From positions 1 through 20,031 of the IMG/VR virus record IMGVR_UViG_3300006802_000808: a stretch of DNA of 20,031 bases, one strand, 5' to 3'. Of the stretch, positions 1,805 to 20,031 are shown piece by piece. Both the position numbers and the translations under genes were made by a program. The stretch is from a virus. Below the pieces are notes generated by a model, which saw only the letters and a program-made list of their open reading frames with translations, was not told the origin of the DNA and did no database searches. Within the stretch, counting starts at the first letter, position 1, and each line of letters opens with the position of its first letter.

Positions 1805-3280
1805 ATGAATACCGAATTTTATGAATTTTATGAATTTTTAGCCAATTATCCCTTCAAGAACAAGCCTTTCCTACATCAGAAAGCCTACCTAAGTAGGTTC
1901 TGGGACAGGGAGGTTGGTGCTCTGTTCGCAGACATGGGCACTGGCAAATCCTTCATGGTCATCAACAACATCGCGATGTTGTATGACTTGGGGAAGGTCA
2001 CTGCCGCCCTGATTGTAGCGCCGAAAGGTGTCTACCGGAACTGGGTCGACAGTGAACTGCCCAAGCATCTGCCTTCACACATTGTCCATCGTATAGCGCT
2101 TTGGTCGCCCAGTCCACGCAAAGCTGAGGCAGATGCGTTGAACAAGGTGATGGAGGTGACCGAAGACCTGAAGATACTGGTCATGAACATTGAGGCGTTG
2201 TCCACGGTCAAGGGAATGAAGTTCGCGCAGCTTTTCCTGCAGTGCTTCCCTGCCCTGATGGCGATTGACGAAAGTACGACGATCAAGACGCCGTCCGCCC
2301 AACGTGCAAAAAACGCCGTAAAAATAGGCAAATACGCCAAGTATCGCCGCATCATGACAGGCTCCCCGGTCACCAAAAGTCCGATGGACCTGTACCAGCA
2401 ATGCCTGTTCCTGTCCGAAGAGTGCCTGAACCTCGCCAGCTACTATGCGTTCCAGTCCCGGTATGCAGTGACCATTGAGCGCAACATGGCGCGGCACAGC
2501 TTCAAGCAGATAGTGGGCTACCGCAAACTGGATGAGCTGCAAGAGAAGCTGGATGAGTTCAGTTTCCGAGTGACCAAGGCCGAATGCTTGGACTTGCCAG
2601 ACAAACTGTACACGAAACGCGAAGTGGACCTGACAGAAGAGCAAGGCAAAGCGTACATGGAGATGAAGAACATGGCGTTGGCCTTGTTCGAAGACGGTCA
2701 GATGACCAGTACGATCAATGCACTCACCCAGCTGATGCGACTGCATCAGATTGTGTGTGGGCACATCAAGCTGGACAACGGCGAAGTGCGGGAAATCCCC
2801 AGTAACCGTATCAAAGAGCTGATAAGCCTGACTGAGGAGTTCGAAGGCAAGGCAATCATCTGGGCGACGTACCGACACGACATTGAGGCGATCAAACTAG
2901 AGCTTCAGAAGATATACGGCATGAACAGTGTCGGGACGTACTACGGGGACACAGAAGAAGAGGACCGGCAGGCGGCTGTCCGCAACTTCCAAGACCCTGA
3001 CAGCGAGATGCGGTTCTTCGTAGGCAACCCTCGGACAGGCGGCTACGGTCTCACGCTCACTGCTGCCAGTGTCGTCATCTACTACAGCAATTCCTTTGAC
3101 TTGGAAGTGCGGATGCAGTCGGAAGACCGTGCTCACCGCATCGGACAGACCAAGAACGTGACCTATGTGGACCTGATTGCGCCGAAGACGGTGGACGAGA
3201 AGATAGTGCAGGCCCTCAGGAACAAGATCGACATCGCCAATCAGGTGCTAGGGGAGGAAATCAAAGCATGGTTAGTCTGA
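1805..3280 (+). CDS. SNF2-family superfamily 2 helicase/DNA translocase
   Basis: The product is 491 aa. The ATG at 1805 is chosen because it follows AAAGAGAG, whereas the frame upstream runs into the divergent promoter. Two RecA-like lobes are clear: Walker A DMGTGKS at residues 43-49, motif Ia VAPKGVYRNW at 71-80, a DEST box (DEAH-type motif II) at 155-158, motif III TGSP at 185-188, the second lobe from about 340, motif V GGYGLTLTAAS at 412-422, and motif VI QSEDRAHRIGQ at 438-448. This motif set is typical of SNF2 ATPases, which translocate on or remodel dsDNA using ATP. The stop overlaps the next gene by 13 bases. In phages such enzymes sit with replication and recombination genes. Which step it serves here (replication, fork processing or nuclease loading) is inferred from the nuclease partner. 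Confidence 0.93.
   Translation: MNTEFYEFYEFLANYPFKNKPFLHQKAYLSRFWDREVGALFADMGTGKSFMVINNIAMLYDLGKVTAALIVAPKGVYRNWVDSELPKHLPSHIVHRIALWSPSPRKAEADALNKVMEVTEDLKILVMNIEALSTVKGMKFAQLFLQCFPALMAIDESTTIKTPSAQRAKNAVKIGKYAKYRRIMTGSPVTKSPMDLYQQCLFLSEECLNLASYYAFQSRYAVTIERNMARHSFKQIVGYRKLDELQEKLDEFSFRVTKAECLDLPDKLYTKREVDLTEEQGKAYMEMKNMALALFEDGQMTSTINALTQLMRLHQIVCGHIKLDNGEVREIPSNRIKELISLTEEFEGKAIIWATYRHDIEAIKLELQKIYGMNSVGTYYGDTEEEDRQAAVRNFQDPDSEMRFFVGNPRTGGYGLTLTAASVVIYYSNSFDLEVRMQSEDRAHRIGQTKNVTYVDLIAPKTVDEKIVQALRNKIDIANQVLGEEIKAWLV
1814..1840 (+). repeat. Three tandem 9-mers at the helicase N-terminus
   Basis: GAATTTTAT at 1814-1822 and 1823-1831, followed by GAATTTTTA at 1832-1840. In frame it encodes Glu-Phe-Tyr twice and then Glu-Phe-Leu. 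The stretch is strikingly AT-rich compared with its surroundings. Confidence 0.9.
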
Positions 3281-3954
3281 TTCCATGGAATAAGTTGTAC
3301 AAGTATGAGGCGCTTGAACGGATAGACTCGACCGAGGGCCGGAAGTACGTCTATGGCGACCAGCGCCTGCCCAGCGTGACCACCATTCTGTCGGCTACAG
3401 GCGACAAGTCGTCCCTTGAGGCGTGGGCCGCGAGGGTTGGGCCAGAGAACGCGGAGAATATCAAAAACGAGGCGTCCACTATCGGGACGCATATGCACAC
3501 GGTGATGGAGCGGCTGCTCGCGCACAAGGACCTGCCCCGCCCGACCAACTGGCTGATGACGCAAGGCTATGAAATGGGATACCGCCTTGTGAATCAATAT
3601 TTTAAACACTTGGAATGCGTGTTCGGCTCAGAAGTGCCGCTGTTCTACCCGGAGAAGTACGCTGGAACAGCGGATTTGGTAGGGGTCTATCGAGGCAGGC
3701 AGGCCATCATAGACTTCAAGCAGTCAAACAAGCCGAAGAAAAAAGAATGGATTCAAAACTACTTCCACCAGCTTGCTGCATATGCCATGGCTCATGATCA
3801 AGTCCACGGCACCTCGATTGACTACGGGGTGATTCTAATGGCCGTCAGGGATGGCACCACTGCGGAGTTCACCACAGTGGGCCATGAGTTCAAGTCGTAT
3901 AAAGAGACGTGGATGCGCCGCGTAGAGCAGTACTACGCGGGCATCGGAGGTTGA
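3268..3954 (+). CDS. PD-(D/E)XK nuclease (RecB/Cas4-like phage exonuclease)
   Basis: The product is 228 aa. The ATG lies inside the last codons of the helicase gene, with GGGAGG about ten bases upstream, so the pair is translationally coupled. The catalytic core is readable in order: GTHMH at residues 73-77 (metal-ligand His), GTAD with Asp136, the DxK signature IDFK with Asp149 and Lys151, then QLAAY with Gln168 and Tyr172. That order (H, D, DxK, QxxxY) matches RecB-type PD-(D/E)XK nucleases, including Cas4 and phage exonucleases. There is no Cys cluster for the Fe-S centre found in many Cas4 proteins. It probably resects or trims DNA ends together with the helicase. Its last codons overlap the 3' end of the convergent gene at 3933-7085 by 22 bases. 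Confidence 0.88.
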   Translation: MVSLIPWNKLYKYEALERIDSTEGRKYVYGDQRLPSVTTILSATGDKSSLEAWAARVGPENAENIKNEASTIGTHMHTVMERLLAHKDLPRPTNWLMTQGYEMGYRLVNQYFKHLECVFGSEVPLFYPEKYAGTADLVGVYRGRQAIIDFKQSNKPKKKEWIQNYFHQLAAYAMAHDQVHGTSIDYGVILMAVRDGTTAEFTTVGHEFKSYKETWMRRVEQYYAGIGG

Positions 3955-13598: not shown

Positions 13599-14261
13599 CT
13601 AAATACCTATAACCACTAGCGTTACAGAGGGGGCAGCGGGACAGAACGCCGTTGCAGCAAGCCCATGGAGATCTGCATCCAAAGCATCTACTGCAAACAT
13701 GGCCTCTAGGTAGTCCCCTCGATTGATTTGAAAGAGGGCTCCTCTGGAAGTCAACGACCTCTGGTCGTTGTTATGAAGGGTATCAACCATCGTCGATCCT
13801 GTGATGTCTACGCCATTCAACCTCGGCCAAAAGTAAAATCTTTTTGTGTTCGCGCTTTCTGAATGAAGCTCTGCTGTGAAATAAATAAAGTATTTGCCAC
13901 TTCTAGCAAAATTAACCCTGCTCGGATAAGTGCCATCAATCTCGACGTTTCTTGAGTAAGCAGTTGTCCCCCACGTAATAGCGGTAGGGGTATCCACTGT
14001 ATCCGCAGACTGAATGTCGAAATCCAAAAACTCCCCATAAGCGAAGGGTTCTCCGGACTGTAGCGCCCCTTGAAACAATGGGCCTAGAGCCCCGCTATAC
14101 CAGTCAAGCGTAGTTTGGTTATTCTCAGTTGCCTGAGGGGTATAAGAGTTATTCAACTGAAAAATAACCTGTTCCAGTGAGCGAACAAGTTGATTAAAGT
14201 TTTGAGGGCTATATGCCTGCGCATCCGCGTTGGGAAGACGCACGTTGAGTATCTTACTCAT
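13599..14261 (-). CDS. Phage virion protein with jelly-roll-like C-terminal domain (220 aa)
   Basis: The N-terminal 45 residues (MSKILNVRLPNADAQAYSP, then FNQLVRSLEQVIFQLNNSYTP) form a helix-containing anchor that I recall from aquatic phage tail-region proteins. The C-terminal 130 residues contain RVNFARSGKYFIYFTAELHS, FYFWPRLNGVDITGS and GDYLEAMFAVDA, resembling the C1q/TNF-like jelly-roll domains common at tips of phage fibres and spikes. The probable role is a short fibre or an adaptor on the tail. The ATG overlaps the stop of the stabilisation-protein gene as ATGA. The ribosome binding site is weak, so translational coupling probably sets its level. The domain call rests on pattern only. 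Confidence 0.58.
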   Translation of the reverse strand: MSKILNVRLPNADAQAYSPQNFNQLVRSLEQVIFQLNNSYTPQATENNQTTLDWYSGALGPLFQGALQSGEPFAYGEFLDFDIQSADTVDTPTAITWGTTAYSRNVEIDGTYPSRVNFARSGKYFIYFTAELHSESANTKRFYFWPRLNGVDITGSTMVDTLHNNDQRSLTSRGALFQINRGDYLEAMFAVDALDADLHGLAATAFCPAAPSVTLVVIGI

Positions 14262-16123
14262 CTAAGCCCGTCCGGTTGTACGTCGACACGAAGCGTGCCG
14301 TAGCGCCAATGCGTGCCCGTCGCCGTGCTTTCAATCTTCAACGCAATCTGCCTGCCTCGTGCTCTGGTGTCCACTTTTTGTGTACTTGTGGTCACCGTAT
14401 AAGGGTCCAATGAACTCGGGGTAGCCGTTGCCTGAGGATAAGCGCGCAGTAACAGGTGCACGGAGAGGTCCCCCTGCTGGTCACTGAAATCCGGGATGAA
14501 CCGCTTCATGAACATCATGTTGTCGCCGTCGCCAAGGTCAAAATACCCGGATGTGATGTATGCCGGAAGCGGCTCGCCGTTAGCGTCAGTCCCTTCCTCT
14601 TGGCTGTACATCAAGGTCCGACCAGCAGTCAGGCCATAAACGGGGACCAATGGTTCCCCTGTGCTGTTGGGGAGATACACTGCAGCAAGGGGCTTGCTGT
14701 AGATAGTCGCGTCCGACCACGCCGTGCGTGAAAGGGTCCCAATATGCCATGTTTGTTCGAGGTAGTTCAACGTCACGCAGCGATCAATAAAGTCACTGCC
14801 TGTTGAACAATAGAACCACGTGACTTCGTTGAACTGAGAGTTCAATCCGGCATATACCTTAATCCCTTGAACAAGGTTTATGTCTTTGAATACATAATCT
14901 TGAACAGTGCACGGCATTTTTTTAACCGTACCATCAAACATGTAGAACGCTTCTTGGCCCATCCAAAAGGTCAGGCCGTTAACGTCTACCGAAGCATGCG
15001 CCCCAACGCACCCGCAGTTACTTCCTAACTGTTGGAAGCCGAAAGTGAAAGGGGGACCTATGTACTGCATGGCATGCAGCGACTTATCTGTATGAATAAG
15101 TATCTGGCCCCTAGAACGGACAGCTGTAATAACCTTGGAACCGTCAGACAGCCGTTGCCCGCCCGCTGTGTTGGTGGCGGTTTCTGTAAATTCTTCGATG
15201 TTTTCTTGGTCGGAGAAACGAACAAACATCGGGTCCTGAGTCACCGGGTCACCGATAGTCGTTTCCGTTCCAAACAAAACCAGATGCCGATCTGGAGTAG
15301 ACACCAACGCATACGCGCTTTTTGTCGGAGCGCCCGAGAGAAGAGTTGCGGGCACAGTTACGCCAGCGCTCAAATCCCAATAGTAGGTCTCGCCATTCAC
15401 TAATTGGCAAACGACATCTTCGCCATACGCATCAAATGCCCAGATTCGAGGATAGAGGACAAGTGCTTCTGTCTGGGGGCGAGGAGTGCCCCACGTAGAC
15501 TGCCCCCAAACGCCAATGCCCCAGCCATAGTCAAAGTAACTGATGTCTTGGCCCACGCTTATCTGATAAGCGCCGACGACTGCCGCTCCCCCATCCCCGC
15601 TGTCAGAGGAGTTTGCGGCGACAGGAGCAAGGATGGTGTAGGTATCTGAGGTCAATACTTCTTGGATCTCATATTCACTGTTCAAAATAGGAGCGGTGAT
15701 GTTTCCGCCAAGGGACGATGCCCCACTAAACGTCACAAAATCCCCAGCTATCGCTCCATGGTCGGTATTGGTGACCGTAATGATCGCGCTTCCATCCGTC
15801 GCAGCGAAAGTCACATCGCCCGGATCGGTGGTAAGACGAATAGGCGTGATGTCATTCCATTTGCCACCAGTAAAAACGTAAAGCTTCCTGTTAGTGCCCG
15901 TAATTGCATAGGCCACCCCGTTCAAGGACGCCCATGTAAACACATCTGAAACAGCCCCAATTAAGTATTGGCCGCCTGACCCAAAGGAGGTCCATCCTCC
16001 TATCTTTTCGGGAAGACCGTAACGAAAACGAATATTGTCACAGTCCACCCAGCCACCCTCAGCGCCGTATTCGGTGTTCTGTTTATCTATTCCGGGCTTG
16101 AGCGCGAGTCTGAGAAGTGGCAC
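14258..16123 (-). CDS. Putative DNA-stabilisation/tail hub protein, P22 gp10-like (621 aa)
   Basis: The start is a GTG at 16123 with GAGGT seven bases upstream. The N-terminus (LALKPGIDKQNTEYGAEGGW, then DNIRFRYGLPEKIGGW at about 29-44) is a signature I associate with phage tail-accessory or stabilisation proteins of the P22 gp10 type, which sit below the portal and hold packaged DNA in place. The rest is beta-rich, with repeated Trp/Phe-Gly blades (AYAITGTNRKLYVFTGG, HLVLFGTE, ILIHTDKSLHAMQYIG, LTFWMGQEAFYMFDG), consistent with a propeller-like fold. Residues about 103-190 look like an inserted beta domain (TNTDHGAIAGDFVTFSGA). Length is somewhat above gp10 (about 470 aa), which the insert would explain. 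It is upstream of the small virion proteins and downstream of the adhesin genes on the same strand. Confidence 0.68.
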   Translation of the reverse strand: MPLLRLALKPGIDKQNTEYGAEGGWVDCDNIRFRYGLPEKIGGWTSFGSGGQYLIGAVSDVFTWASLNGVAYAITGTNRKLYVFTGGKWNDITPIRLTTDPGDVTFAATDGSAIITVTNTDHGAIAGDFVTFSGASSLGGNITAPILNSEYEIQEVLTSDTYTILAPVAANSSDSGDGGAAVVGAYQISVGQDISYFDYGWGIGVWGQSTWGTPRPQTEALVLYPRIWAFDAYGEDVVCQLVNGETYYWDLSAGVTVPATLLSGAPTKSAYALVSTPDRHLVLFGTETTIGDPVTQDPMFVRFSDQENIEEFTETATNTAGGQRLSDGSKVITAVRSRGQILIHTDKSLHAMQYIGPPFTFGFQQLGSNCGCVGAHASVDVNGLTFWMGQEAFYMFDGTVKKMPCTVQDYVFKDINLVQGIKVYAGLNSQFNEVTWFYCSTGSDFIDRCVTLNYLEQTWHIGTLSRTAWSDATIYSKPLAAVYLPNSTGEPLVPVYGLTAGRTLMYSQEEGTDANGEPLPAYITSGYFDLGDGDNMMFMKRFIPDFSDQQGDLSVHLLLRAYPQATATPSSLDPYTVTTSTQKVDTRARGRQIALKIESTATGTHWRYGTLRVDVQPDGLR

Positions 16124-16144: not shown

Positions 16145-16864
16145 TTAGTAAGAAAACTCAACCACAAGACCGTCGGCCTTGAGGGACCACGCTGTTACCT
16201 TGTGCCGGTATTCAAAGTTTCTAAGCGCGACCTTCATTGAAGGAGGAACACTTTCGAATCCTCCAAAACGAGTGATCGTAGGCTCCAATGCCTCCGGACC
16301 TACTTTTACAAGACCTCTTTGGTCGAAGGTATACCGGTCAAGCACCCGCCCATTTGTAAGATTTTTGGAGACATAGGCGTACTTAGTCGCCCCTACCGTA
16401 ACTCCCTCCTCATACCACTCGGTGACAGCGCCGTTAAGAACCTTGACCAACTGCTCGTCGCAGCCGAAGAGGTTAGCGAGAAGTTGATCGGTAGAGACGT
16501 TATACATAGTAACTATATATTCCGACTCTTTATTTATGCCTTTGGACGCTAGAAAAGAATCTACGGCAAGTTTGTCGGCGGAATAACCGTCGTAGTTTGC
16601 GGGTTCGGGTGGGGCAGGGGGCGCTACTGGAGTGGTATCTACTTCCCCCGAAAGTCCGGGGTTGGGGGGTACAACTTGTTTTTCTTGCTCCTGCCAATAT
16701 GCCACGGGGGCATACGCACGGATAACGTCTTCAACAGTTTCTCCCTCATATGGGAGCCGCGTGCCGATATGAAGAGTCTGTCTATTGTTACTGGAATACA
16801 CAACTTCCATGCAACGGGCGGCTTCGTCTACATTGATAATTTCATAGGTATATTTGATGCTCAT
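16145..16864 (-). CDS. Hypothetical tail-region protein (239 aa)
   Basis: The start is taken as the ATG at 16864, which has AGGGG seven bases upstream and an ATGA overlap with the adhesin gene; the frame could be extended to 16900 but only without a good site. The N-terminal 70 residues (IKYTYEIINVDEAARCMEVVYSS and following) form a small alpha/beta unit. A Pro-rich linker of about 25 residues (PPNPGLSGEVDTTPVAPPAPPEP region) separates it from a C-terminal domain containing VSTDQLLANLFGCDEQLVKVLNG and a beta-rich end. I do not recognise the family. Its place between the hub and adhesin genes suggests a tail component or an assembly factor for the adhesin. Confidence 0.6.
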   Translation of the reverse strand: MSIKYTYEIINVDEAARCMEVVYSSNNRQTLHIGTRLPYEGETVEDVIRAYAPVAYWQEQEKQVVPPNPGLSGEVDTTPVAPPAPPEPANYDGYSADKLAVDSFLASKGINKESEYIVTMYNVSTDQLLANLFGCDEQLVKVLNGAVTEWYEEGVTVGATKYAYVSKNLTNGRVLDRYTFDQRGLVKVGPEALEPTITRFGGFESVPPSMKVALRNFEYRHKVTAWSLKADGLVVEFSY

Positions 16865-17622
16865 GAGATTGCCCCTAATCGTGTGCCTGTCGCTATCCAA
16901 GTAATGTTGCTATTTCCAGTGACTGCTCCACCCGCAGCGCCCCCGGAACCGCCAGCGTATGGAGTAGCACCCGCAGAGGCGGTAACACCTGTAGCTCCTG
17001 CGCTGCCCCAGCCTCCGCCATCTCCGCCATTCCCAGTAGTGTATATATTTGGGTAACCCCCAGTGCTACCGGCTCCTCCAGTGCCTGCCGCCGAAGAAGT
17101 ACCCGCATCCCCCGCAGATCCTCCAGTGCCTGCTGTTCCACCCGCCGAATTCGTAGTGCCAGTACGCCCTCCTCCCCCTCCTCCTCCGGAATAAGAAGTC
17201 CCGGTGGAAGCAGTAGCTCCGCCGCCACCGCCACCGCCACCGCCACCGCCACCGATAGTGCCGGAAGTGTTATCAATCGACACGGCGGTAGAAACCGACA
17301 ACGCCAAGCCCCCAGCGGAACCCGCTAACCCCGTATTACCTACTCTCCCATTCCCTCCAGCGCCCCCCATTCCAGCGATGAACCCGTTGTTTATGAGTGT
17401 TACATCGTTAGGGAACGACCCGGAAATAGTGAGGGCGGGGGTGCCTGTAGCGTTACTACTGATATAAACGCCAGAATCAATAGTGGCTTTTACTTCGATA
17501 TCTTCATCCCATCCAGCATTGACGGCGAGAGTCCTAAGATTCGCGTTTGTCTGATTCGAAGAGATAGTAAAGGTAAAGGGTCCTCCACCTCCCGCAACCA
17601 GCATATTGAGAATGCCGCTCAT
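16861..17622 (-). CDS. Polyglycine-rich putative receptor-binding adhesin (253 aa)
   Basis: The start is the ATG at 17622, joined to the fibre gene by TAATG; an upstream in-frame start at 17652 would overlap that gene by 31 bases. Residues 15-82 are beta-rich (FTFTISSNQTNANLRTLAV, ALTISGSF, VTLINNGFIAGMGG), like the end domain of phage tail-tip adhesins. From about 82 to 235 the chain is mostly Gly, Ala, Ser and Thr, with a run of 12 Gly at 124-135 and 7 Gly at 146-152. Gly-rich blocks of this kind form the polyglycine-II sandwich that carries the receptor-binding loops in T-even type gp38 adhesins. The short non-Gly stretches between them would then be the specificity loops. It lies directly after the long fibre gene, as tip adhesins often do. 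Confidence 0.62.
   Translation of the reverse strand: MSGILNMLVAGGGGPFTFTISSNQTNANLRTLAVNAGWDEDIEVKATIDSGVYISSNATGTPALTISGSFPNDVTLINNGFIAGMGGAGGNGRVGNTGLAGSAGGLALSVSTAVSIDNTSGTIGGGGGGGGGGGGATASTGTSYSGGGGGGGRTGTTNSAGGTAGTGGSAGDAGTSSAAGTGGAGSTGGYPNIYTTGNGGDGGGWGSAGATGVTASAGATPYAGGSGGAAGGAVTGNSNITWIATGTRLGAIS
17222..17254. repeat. Hexanucleotide microsatellite (CCGCCA)5 encoding polyglycine
   Basis: Five perfect CCGCCA units at 17222-17251 plus CCG at 17252-17254. On the coding strand this is alternating GGT-GGC, giving ten of the twelve consecutive glycines. Slippage by whole units would add or remove Gly pairs without changing frame. Confidence 0.95.
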
Positions 17623-19601
17623 TAGGTGAGCCCCGTGCCCGAGAGGATCCACGTAGTAGAAGCCGTCTTAAGTGCAGTGGCTACGCCCCATTGAGCGAGT
17701 GTTTTTGTGCCCGTGGCCCCCGTTCCAGCGAGACGTAGGGTATTTACACAAGCAATACTAAGAGGATCAGCACTGTAATTAACGAAAGTAATCGCCGTTC
17801 CAATCGGGTAAGGAACGTTGCCATTTGTCGGAATGGTGAAAGTCCTCGCTCCTGTATCTGAACTAGGTCTATAAATATGCTTTCCTGAATCGGACAGCAC
17901 CAGCGTATAGTCAGCGGATTGGGAGTTCTGGGGGACGTTTCTAAACCCAACAGACGCGCTCTCATCGGGGAACGTCATCGTGGTCGAATCGGTCCCTGAG
18001 AACGTAATACTGTTGTCTACCGTCGCGGTCTTGCCATCAGCGATAGTCAAAGTTGCAGAGGAAGCAGGGGCAGTAATTGTTACTTTGTTAATGCTGGTAG
18101 CAGTGGCCGCGCCAAGAACAGGGGCAGTAAAGGTTTTATTAGAAAGAGTCTGCGTATCAGTAGTTCCAACAAGGGCCCCAGACGGCGCTGTCAATGACGT
18201 AGTCCACGCCGACCCCGTAGAAACGGCAACGCCTGCCGCAGGATAAACTTGAGAGGGTGTAGTGGAAGCAATTGTGATGCTCCCCGAGCCGTTGGTGATC
18301 GCAATTCCGGAGCCTGCCGTCAGGGTGGACTTGGTCAAAGTGTTTCCGGTGGTATTGCCGATCAACAGTTGGCCATTCGTATACGACGTTTGGCCCGTAC
18401 CTCCATTGGTCACAGCCAAGCTGCCCGTAATGCCGGTGGACAATGGGAGTCCTGTGCAGTTTGTGAGCGTTCCGGAAGATGGCGTGCCCAGAACGGGGGT
18501 TGTCAACGTAGGAGACGCCAGCGTGGGGCTGGTTCCAAATACCAGCGCGCCACTTCCAGTCTCTCCTGTTACCGCTGCGGCAAGGTTAGAGGAAGAAGGG
18601 GTCGCCAAAAACGTCGCAACACCCGTTCCCAGCCCTGAAACTCCGGTGGAAACAGGAAGCCCTGTGCAGTTGGTAAGCGTTCCAGATGCGGGTGTTCCCA
18701 AAACGGGAGAAGTCAGGGTGGGAGACGCAATCGTAGGGCTTGTGCCAAACACCAAAGCACCGCTTCCGGTTTCGCCCGTGACTGCTGCGGCAAGGTTAGA
18801 GGAAGAAGGGGTCGCCAAAAACGTCGCAACACCCGTTCCCAACCCAGAAACGCCCGTTGAGACAGGGAGTCCTGTGCAGTTGGTAAGCGTTCCGGAAGAG
18901 GGGGTTCCCAAAACAGGCGTAGTCAGTGTCGGAGAGGCAAGAGTAGGGCTCGTTCCAAACACCAGCGCGCCACTTCCAGTCTCTCCTGTTACCGCTGCGG
19001 CAAGGTTAGAGGAAGAAGGGGTCGCCAAAAATGTGGCAACGCCGGTGCCCAGCCCTGAAACTCCGGTGGAAACAGGAAGCCCTGTGCAGTTGGTAAGCGT
19101 TCCGGAAGAGGGGGTTCCCAAAATAGGGGTCGAAAAGGTCGGGGAAGTAAATACGGGGTTTTCTAGTATGCTGCCGACCACCGCCGCAGTAGAGCCGCCC
19201 CCGTCGCAACGGATGACGAGGTCTTTCCCGTTCGGGACCTCTATATCCTTGGTGGCATCGTAAGAATCGGTCTGAAAAATAAAGACAGAGTACCCACCCG
19301 CGACAGAGTTCCGTACAAAATAGTACCCCTCGAAATCGTTTGGAGTAATCTGGACGTAAGTGGCCACCCCGGGAGTTCCAGTGAACTCGATCACACGGTT
19401 ACGGCCATTGGATGCAGCAAAATCCGCCACATTCAGGGCATAAGGAGCGCCTGACGTATAGCTATTTGTCATTGCGATGCTGACATAGCCAACAATCGCC
19501 GTGTCAAAGTAGTCGAAATTTGTATTAGTAGAGTCGCCCCACGTTTCCGCCTCGTCTCCGGTGGCGATCTTCTTGATACCGAGGTTTGTATACGTTGCCA
19601 T
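17622..19601 (-). CDS. Long tail fibre with 70-residue tandem repeats (659 aa)
   Basis: The start is the ATG at 19601 with AGGA upstream. The N-terminus (MATYTNLGIKKIATGDEAETWGDSTNTNFD) resembles the virion-attachment segment of fibres in aquatic phages. Residues 1-140 form that attachment domain. From 161 to about 390 there are four copies of LGTPSSGTLTNCTGLP (at 161, 231, 301 and 371), three full 70-residue periods rich in Ser, Thr, Gly and Pro, presumably a beta-rich shaft. Each unit has one Cys in the same place. The C-terminal 250 residues include SLAVTNGGTGQTSYTNGQLL, TDTQTLSNKTFTAPVLG and a final beta domain, all common in phage fibres. Its stop overlaps the adhesin start, so the two are probably made together as fibre and tip. 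Confidence 0.8.
   Translation of the reverse strand: MATYTNLGIKKIATGDEAETWGDSTNTNFDYFDTAIVGYVSIAMTNSYTSGAPYALNVADFAASNGRNRVIEFTGTPGVATYVQITPNDFEGYYFVRNSVAGGYSVFIFQTDSYDATKDIEVPNGKDLVIRCDGGGSTAAVVGSILENPVFTSPTFSTPILGTPSSGTLTNCTGLPVSTGVSGLGTGVATFLATPSSSNLAAAVTGETGSGALVFGTSPTLASPTLTTPVLGTPSSGTLTNCTGLPVSTGVSGLGTGVATFLATPSSSNLAAAVTGETGSGALVFGTSPTIASPTLTSPVLGTPASGTLTNCTGLPVSTGVSGLGTGVATFLATPSSSNLAAAVTGETGSGALVFGTSPTLASPTLTTPVLGTPSSGTLTNCTGLPLSTGITGSLAVTNGGTGQTSYTNGQLLIGNTTGNTLTKSTLTAGSGIAITNGSGSITIASTTPSQVYPAAGVAVSTGSAWTTSLTAPSGALVGTTDTQTLSNKTFTAPVLGAATATSINKVTITAPASSATLTIADGKTATVDNSITFSGTDSTTMTFPDESASVGFRNVPQNSQSADYTLVLSDSGKHIYRPSSDTGARTFTIPTNGNVPYPIGTAITFVNYSADPLSIACVNTLRLAGTGATGTKTLAQWGVATALKTASTTWILSGTGLT
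18432..19121. repeat. 210-bp tandem repeats in the tail fibre gene
   Basis: The period is 210 bases: the GCTGCGGCAAGGTTAGAGG block starts at 18574, 18784 and 18994. Identical blocks are shared in different pairings: 18541-18611 equals 18961-19031, 18574-18631 equals 18784-18841, and 18628-18693 equals 19048-19113. The fourth, outer copy toward 18432 is more diverged. Confidence 0.93.
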
Positions 19602-19616: not shown

Positions 19617-20031
19617 TTAGGCTACTTTGAGCCATGAAACCGTGTTGGAGTCGTCTACTGGAGTCCAGTCCGTCGCCTGAGAATCGTCTACTGGAGTCCA
19701 GCCGGGATTCTGGTCAGGGGAAACGGGCGTCCACACAATTACCTGCCCCACGGCCCCTATAGCATACACCGACGGGACAGGAGTCAGTATCTCCGGGGTG
19801 CCCACCGCACCGGTGGAGGCCACTCCGGAGGGCAGTACTGTAAGACTTAGCTCAACAGTAGGGGTGCCAACAGCACCGGTGGCTGACTGGCCGGTTACCG
19901 TATAGTCAACATTCTGGGCTGTGGTGACGGTCCCTACCGCACCGGTGGCTGACTGGCCGGTGACCGTATAGTCGACATTCTGGACTGTGGTGACGGTCCC
20001 TACCGCACCGGTGGCTGACTGGCCGGTGACC
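19617..20031 (-). CDS. Repeat-rich virion protein, C-terminal part only (N-terminus outside window)
   Basis: The frame ending at the TAA at 19617 stays open to base 20031, so the GTG at 19823 is an internal codon and not a start. The visible part is 137 codons. It begins with about two and a half units of a 22-residue repeat (VTGQSATGAVGTVTTVQNVD, then Y-T), followed by a looser region with STGAVGTPEI, then a C-terminal segment with WTPVDDSQ, TDWTPVDDS and WLKVA. ATGAVG-type repeats and Trp-containing C-termini of this sort occur in structural proteins of aquatic phages; the function is not established. The Val/Thr/Gly alternation suggests stacked beta strands. It is upstream of the fibre gene by 15 bases and may be a fibre or surface-display protein. 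Confidence 0.65.
   Translation of the reverse strand, partial: VTGQSATGAVGTVTTVQNVDYTVTGQSATGAVGTVTTAQNVDYTVTGQSATGAVGTPTVELSLTVLPSGVASTGAVGTPEILTPVPSVYAIGAVGQVIVWTPVSPDQNPGWTPVDDSQATDWTPVDDSNTVSWLKVA
19651..19701. repeat. 18-bp direct repeat, 33-bp period
   Basis: Bases 19651-19668 recur exactly at 19684-19701. The 11-codon offset duplicates WTPVDDS at the C-terminus of the partial repeat protein. Confidence 0.85.
19867..20031. repeat. 66-bp tandem repeats running off the right edge
   Basis: Units start near 19867, 19933 and 19999, each 66 bases or 22 codons. The second and third copies are almost identical over the visible part. The first differs at a few positions, for example GTTACC versus GTGACC near 19894-19899 and 19960-19965. 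The array is cut by the window end, so the total copy number is unknown. Confidence 0.92.

Follow-up and report, generated by a model that had tools for sequence, protein, structure and literature searches.

The window, i.e., the whole stretch of DNA analyzed here, is an IMG/VR virus record of 20,031 bases and is a fragment. The genes considered are:

17622..19601, minus strand: tail-fibre (shaft) gene, identified by its ORF and PHROG matches; 659 aa, consisting of an N-terminal part, a module array, and a C-terminal part
16861..17652, minus strand: Gly-rich Gp38-like adhesin gene, directly downstream of the fibre gene (PF05268 GP38, 36.2 bits against a cut-off of 25)
14258-16123: virion structural protein gene, neighbour of the fibre gene (phrog_3287, E 5.1e-95)
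3268..3954, plus strand: PD-(D/E)XK exonuclease gene (phrog_298 exonuclease, E 6.6e-51; PF12705)

A tail-fibre family match together with virion gene neighbours identifies the 659-aa product as a tail-fibre protein. It matches phrog_31660 tail fiber protein (E 2.9e-18) and the virion families phrog_31104 and phrog_6002, and has no Pfam match at E <= 0.001; the adhesin also matches phrog_2056 (tail fiber protein; host specificity). Comparison of the fibre with solved structures yields a single, chance-level match (E 0.45). The AlphaFold2 monomer model of the array is of low confidence overall (pLDDT 58, pTM 0.26), its confident part being only a short helix pair per unit, at approximately residues 25-45.

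A further repeat array (19797-20031), with a 66-bp unit (22 aa, SATGAVGT type), lies in the next ORF and is cut by the end of the record. The ORF at 76-837 encodes a Pam3 gp34-like protein (PF23977; phrog_2402, function unknown), which has no match among solved structures and ends in an acidic tail with terminal Pro-Phe, which we take to resemble the tails of single-strand DNA-binding proteins. The closest match to the neighbouring gene 16145-16900 is found in L244 (IMGVR_UViG_3300021961_000383), with 556 bases at 96.6% identity (window 16154-16709); nothing else is shared in the 6.5 kb compared, and the L244 contig ends inside that gene. In L245, a Gp38-family adhesin locus has the same order as in the window, but a different kind of shaft repeat.

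Repeat units and codon mosaic

A repeat with a period of 210 bp was detected over 18433-19123 both by Tandem Repeats Finder and by a repeat finder; three copies are complete and a fourth is partial. Codons are numbered 0-69 within a unit, and the order from U1 to U3 follows the direction of translation. The units, as delimited by the codon table (for U3, also by the clustering tests), and the exact blocks found by in-register comparison are:

18909..19118, minus strand: unit U1, 70 codons
18699..18908, minus strand: unit U2, 70 codons
18489..18698, minus strand: unit U3, 70 codons, chimeric copy
18429..18488, minus strand: partial unit U4, approximately the first 20 codons
18541..18611 = 18961-19031, minus strand: 71-base block, U3 = U1 (outer copies)
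18574..18631 = 18784-18841, minus strand: 58-base block, U3 = U2 (adjacent copies)
18628..18683 = 19048-19103, minus strand: 56-base block, U3 = U1 (outer copies)
18871..18913 = 19081-19123, minus strand: 43-base block, U2 = U1
18574-18611, 18784-18821, and 18994-19031, minus strand: 38-base core, identical in U1, U2, and U3

The original prediction described three near-identical copies with synonymous differences elsewhere. Indeed, the same residue is seen at 68/70 codons for U1-U2, 69/70 for U1-U3, and 67/70 for U2-U3, the differences being nearly all synonymous. The predicted 71-base and 58-base blocks are exact; the second block between the outer copies exists as well, but is 56 bases long, not 66 as had been claimed. 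The 43-base block and the 38-base core come in addition to those predicted.

A site-by-site alignment, proposed in the original prediction as a search for conversion tracts, reveals tracts with changing partners. U1 is identical to U2 over codons 0-11 and to U3 over codons 5-22 and again 29-51; U2 is identical to U3 over codons 23-40; all three units coincide over codons 29-40, and beyond codon 51 the agreement is mixed. U3 is thus composed of U1-like codons 5-22, U2-like codons 23-28, common codons 29-40, and U1-like codons 41-51. The codon table places the first change in U3, from likeness to U1 to likeness to U2, at the boundary of codons 22 and 23; the change back to likeness to U1 lies at some point within codons 29-40, a stretch in which the copies do not differ. 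With a, b, and c standing for the pair that agrees, the informative columns form the string aaabbbbbbbbcccccbbbbbbbbbbabaccaaca.

When columns are shuffled, state changes as few as those of the three-way pattern arise with P = 8e-5. For the pairs, the permutation analysis of how identical codons cluster gives P = 3.5e-4 for U1-U2, 5e-5 for U1-U3 (the lowest value that 20,000 shuffles allow), and 1e-4 for U2-U3. Simple tandem duplication in one order, followed by point mutation, predicts exchangeable codon columns, which the permutations reject; point mutation alone is insufficient, as had been stated. The perfect 210-bp register and a five-residue insert common to all units (see below) indicate that duplication of one unit is part of the history; however, the succession U1 = U3, U2 = U3, all equal, U1 = U3 along the unit requires at least two switches in U3, so that a single simple duplication order, named beforehand as an observation that would refute the recombination reading, does not fit. 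As the whole explanation, we regard it as very unlikely.

Synonymous codons are found in two states, identical inside the tracts and saturated outside. The tract limits were drawn from the same data, hence the following counts are descriptive, the permutation being the test: inside the tracts, 18/18, 23/23, 12/12, 12/12, 7/7, and 18/18 codons are identical; outside, identity compares with that expected from random use of the phage's own codons as 4/17 vs 4.3 (codons 12-28) and 10/27 vs 7.3 (41-69) for U1-U2, 1/6 vs 1.6 (23-28) and 5/18 vs 4.8 (52-69) for U1-U3, and 2/4 vs 1.0 (0-4), 3/11 vs 2.7 (12-22), and 8/27 vs 7.3 (41-69) for U2-U3. The window pairs have synonymous codon identities of 0.55, 0.75, and 0.57, while the mean to other contigs is 0.28. 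The simplest reading of identity inside the tracts and saturation outside is that the copies are old and the exchanges recent and short. The predicted "homogenization" thus holds for the short tracts, but is only partial for the array, the copies being saturated at synonymous sites elsewhere.

We also considered selection against codon identity between copies, which would shield the array from recombination, and rejected it, as identity outside the tracts equals the codon-use expectation and does not fall below it.

The shaft module in other phages

The unit belongs to what we descriptively name here the 65-aa LGTP..SGTLTNCTGLP shaft module. Fibre relatives are encoded by at least 562 of the 599 candidate stretches listed in the first scan, and by at least 511 of the 599 listed in a scan with one unit; in many records, module relatives have up to 92% protein identity to U2. 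Judging by these matches, the module is very common in environmental phages, and the window unit is its variant. A near-identical relative of the window array was not found in these scans. No literature match was found for the NCTGLP string, and no account of this module in the literature on phage-fibre gene conversion, concerted evolution, and intragenic repeats or unequal crossing, in a library with few subscription journals.

Among 264 sources (repeated loci not removed), 91 of the 124 motif-to-motif spacings up to 130 aa equal 65. A spacing of 70 is seen in 3/3 cases in the window and in 0/121 of the other motif spacings up to 130 aa. The window's 70 aa represent the 65-aa module with a five-residue linker insert in all three units. 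The same 264 sources contain this insert once more, in L168, whose unit agrees with the window units in 9, 9, and 11 of 57 same-residue codons. Given its presence in all three units and the low codon agreement with L168, we infer that the insert was present in, or had spread to, all three copies before the linker became saturated.

Comparison with these modules bears on whether the identical blocks might be conserved at the DNA level through a second function, as the 38-base core common to all three units could suggest. Over the 12 codons of the common core, the mean between-phage codon identity is 0.30, against 0.29 in other columns; of the 257 modules compared, taken from 129 other contigs, the closest shares 7/12 core codons; and an IMG/VR search with 36 bases of the core gave 0 other exact matches. 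The blocks are not conserved between phages, and DNA-level constraint is therefore hardly probable.

The analysis of within-array identity was performed on 44 contigs with testable pairs (158 pairs), after seven repeated loci and L001 had been dropped. Codon identity within arrays averages 0.47, whereas the codon use of each contig predicts 0.33; it exceeds the prediction in 38 of the 44 contigs (Wilcoxon P 7.5e-10). In a larger set (243 sources, of which 159 have a full module; 29 dropped as sharing an identical module, 130 kept), clustered identity uncorrected for multiple testing is seen at P<=0.05 in 36/191 same-frame within-array pairs and 82/1870 sampled between-contig pairs, and at P<=0.01 in 14/191 and 10/1870, respectively. 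A three-way mosaic at P<=0.01, again uncorrected for multiple testing, is present in 7/101 triples, and in 4 of the 35 arrays with three testable modules, namely the window, L008, L015, and L047. Since only these four show it, the window is an extreme case, with the clearest mosaic among the arrays tested.

In a further set, comprising 18 loci from prokaryote genome contigs and two phage records, a clustered pair is found in two MAG arrays, L247 (P 0.0017) and L248 (P 0.0003). Three of the four isolate-derived arrays are testable and show no clustering: Pseudomonas phage PfAn1 L162 (P 0.23) and the two Bradyrhizobium arrays L254 (P 0.79) and L260 (P 0.20); the fourth, L256, has no testable pair. 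In L248 (JAHFKW010000004.1), module pairs lie 605 aa apart in one open frame, with one pair identical over 50 codons and another being the mosaic one (P 0.0003), which suggests that a long internal segment of a large protein was duplicated.

Module number and probable module exchange among kin

The loci L003 and L150 come from different metagenomes. Their flanks are 93.3% and 95.3% identical, and their arrays differ by exactly one 195-bp module (regions compared, L003:4055-5800 and L150:5620-7150); the remaining module of L150 is a hybrid, with one part like one L003 module and another part like another. Copy number thus varies among close relatives. The claim that the shaft can change in length is supported by this pair rather than by the window itself, but not that it does so quickly, as other close pairs, e.g., L043-L045, L193-L224, and L235-L243, have arrays of equal length.

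In L012:5984-6726 and L003:4644-5386 the module arrays are 87% alike, and one module of each shares 98% of synonymous codons; other aligned stretches are approximately 73-74% alike and in another order. Sharing of modules against such a background points to exchange of arrays between these phages.

As modules do move between phages, as in this pair, the window array might be a young duplication, its divergent tracts having been brought into single units, as short imports, from modules of other phages. Two of the divergent tracts, 33 and 27 bases long, gave no donor in IMG/VR searches, although these find exact matches only and may leave out near records. Furthermore, the tract in which U2 is the odd copy meets the one in which U1 is the odd copy exactly at codons 22/23, which would be a coincidence for independent imports, but a single switch point under exchange within the array. 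Import is, in our estimate, quite improbable.

The source being a metagenome record, repeat collapse, misjoining, or strain mixing during assembly might also be invoked, all the more so as an assembler working with short words can change path at shared blocks of 56-71 bases. Such blocks are, however, shorter than a usual short read. A wrong path reorders segments or alters copy number, but would not make saturated segments identical over 56-71 bases, and module indels as well as clustering of identical codons are seen again in other, independent records. We assign only a slim chance to an assembly artefact.

Probable recombination among old repeats, and known systems

Taken together, the record does contain the mosaic, and the reading that accounts for it best, which we consider likely, is recent recombination in short tracts between old repeats, accompanied by module gain and loss. 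Repeat-to-repeat recombination or gene conversion, as originally predicted, is well supported by the codon table, the permutations, the two-state identity, and the lack of DNA-level constraint. The array would have started as tandem copies, now old, of the widespread shaft module, in which selection keeps the protein nearly identical while synonymous codons drifted to saturation between copies; short recent recombination tracts, approximately 18 to 70 bases long, would then have patched the copies. The within-array synonymous likeness, the conversion-like tracts with changing partners, and, in kin, the difference in copy number between close relatives are features of concerted evolution, and on this basis the array is a clear new example of concertedly evolving intragenic repeats, a known kind of behaviour.

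While the phage replicates, misaligned repeats may exchange sequence by homologous recombination or single-strand annealing, a reasonable route for which we infer the enzyme. Misaligned pairing would lead to copying of a tract (gene conversion), and units out of step to gain or loss of a whole module. The PD-(D/E)XK exonuclease is a possible candidate for a recombination nuclease; the record also encodes an SNF2-type helicase, whereas none of its ORFs that were scanned was recognized as encoding an annealing protein. Beneath the adhesin, the shaft could, through such exchange, vary in length, which might affect its reach or its contact with the host.

The locus resembles the T-even distal tail-fibre locus (gp37 fibre, gp38 adhesin) in that a fibre gene is followed by a Gly-rich adhesin of the Gp38 family, and in having repeated fibre segments that change in number. 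In T4, duplications of a small adhesin domain are reported to expand the host range (Tetart et al., 1996, as cited in PMC6957217). However, the window repeats are 70-aa shaft modules, in a different phage type, and the locus is not classed as T-even-like, as homology of the fibre to gp37 is not seen, no Pfam family matching it at E <= 0.001. Compared with the widespread 65-aa module, the window unit is the same module, distinguished by the insert that makes it 70 aa and by its clear mosaic. Collagen-like or other repeats in phage tail proteins act as recombination sites. Like those repeats, the window repeats are located in a host-contact gene and allow in-frame length change; unlike them, the window modules are long and their codons saturated, which limits exchange to short tracts.

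A wider, speculative reading, which we consider unlikely as a whole, is that the shaft module might be a shared currency of environmental phages, with the protein nearly constant, codons scrambled, and whole-module loss rare. Exchange of short tracts and, occasionally, of whole modules would take place inside an array as well as between phages that are unrelated, and would thereby adjust shaft length and combine different adhesins.

In this array, a host-contact gene of an uncultured phage bears a clean trace of exchange between repeats; the finding would gain weight if variation appeared within a single read population. With the codon-based test, selection on the protein and recombination can be told apart in any fibre array. 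Given how common the module is in environmental phages, its gain, loss, and exchange may be a general means to vary fibre length.
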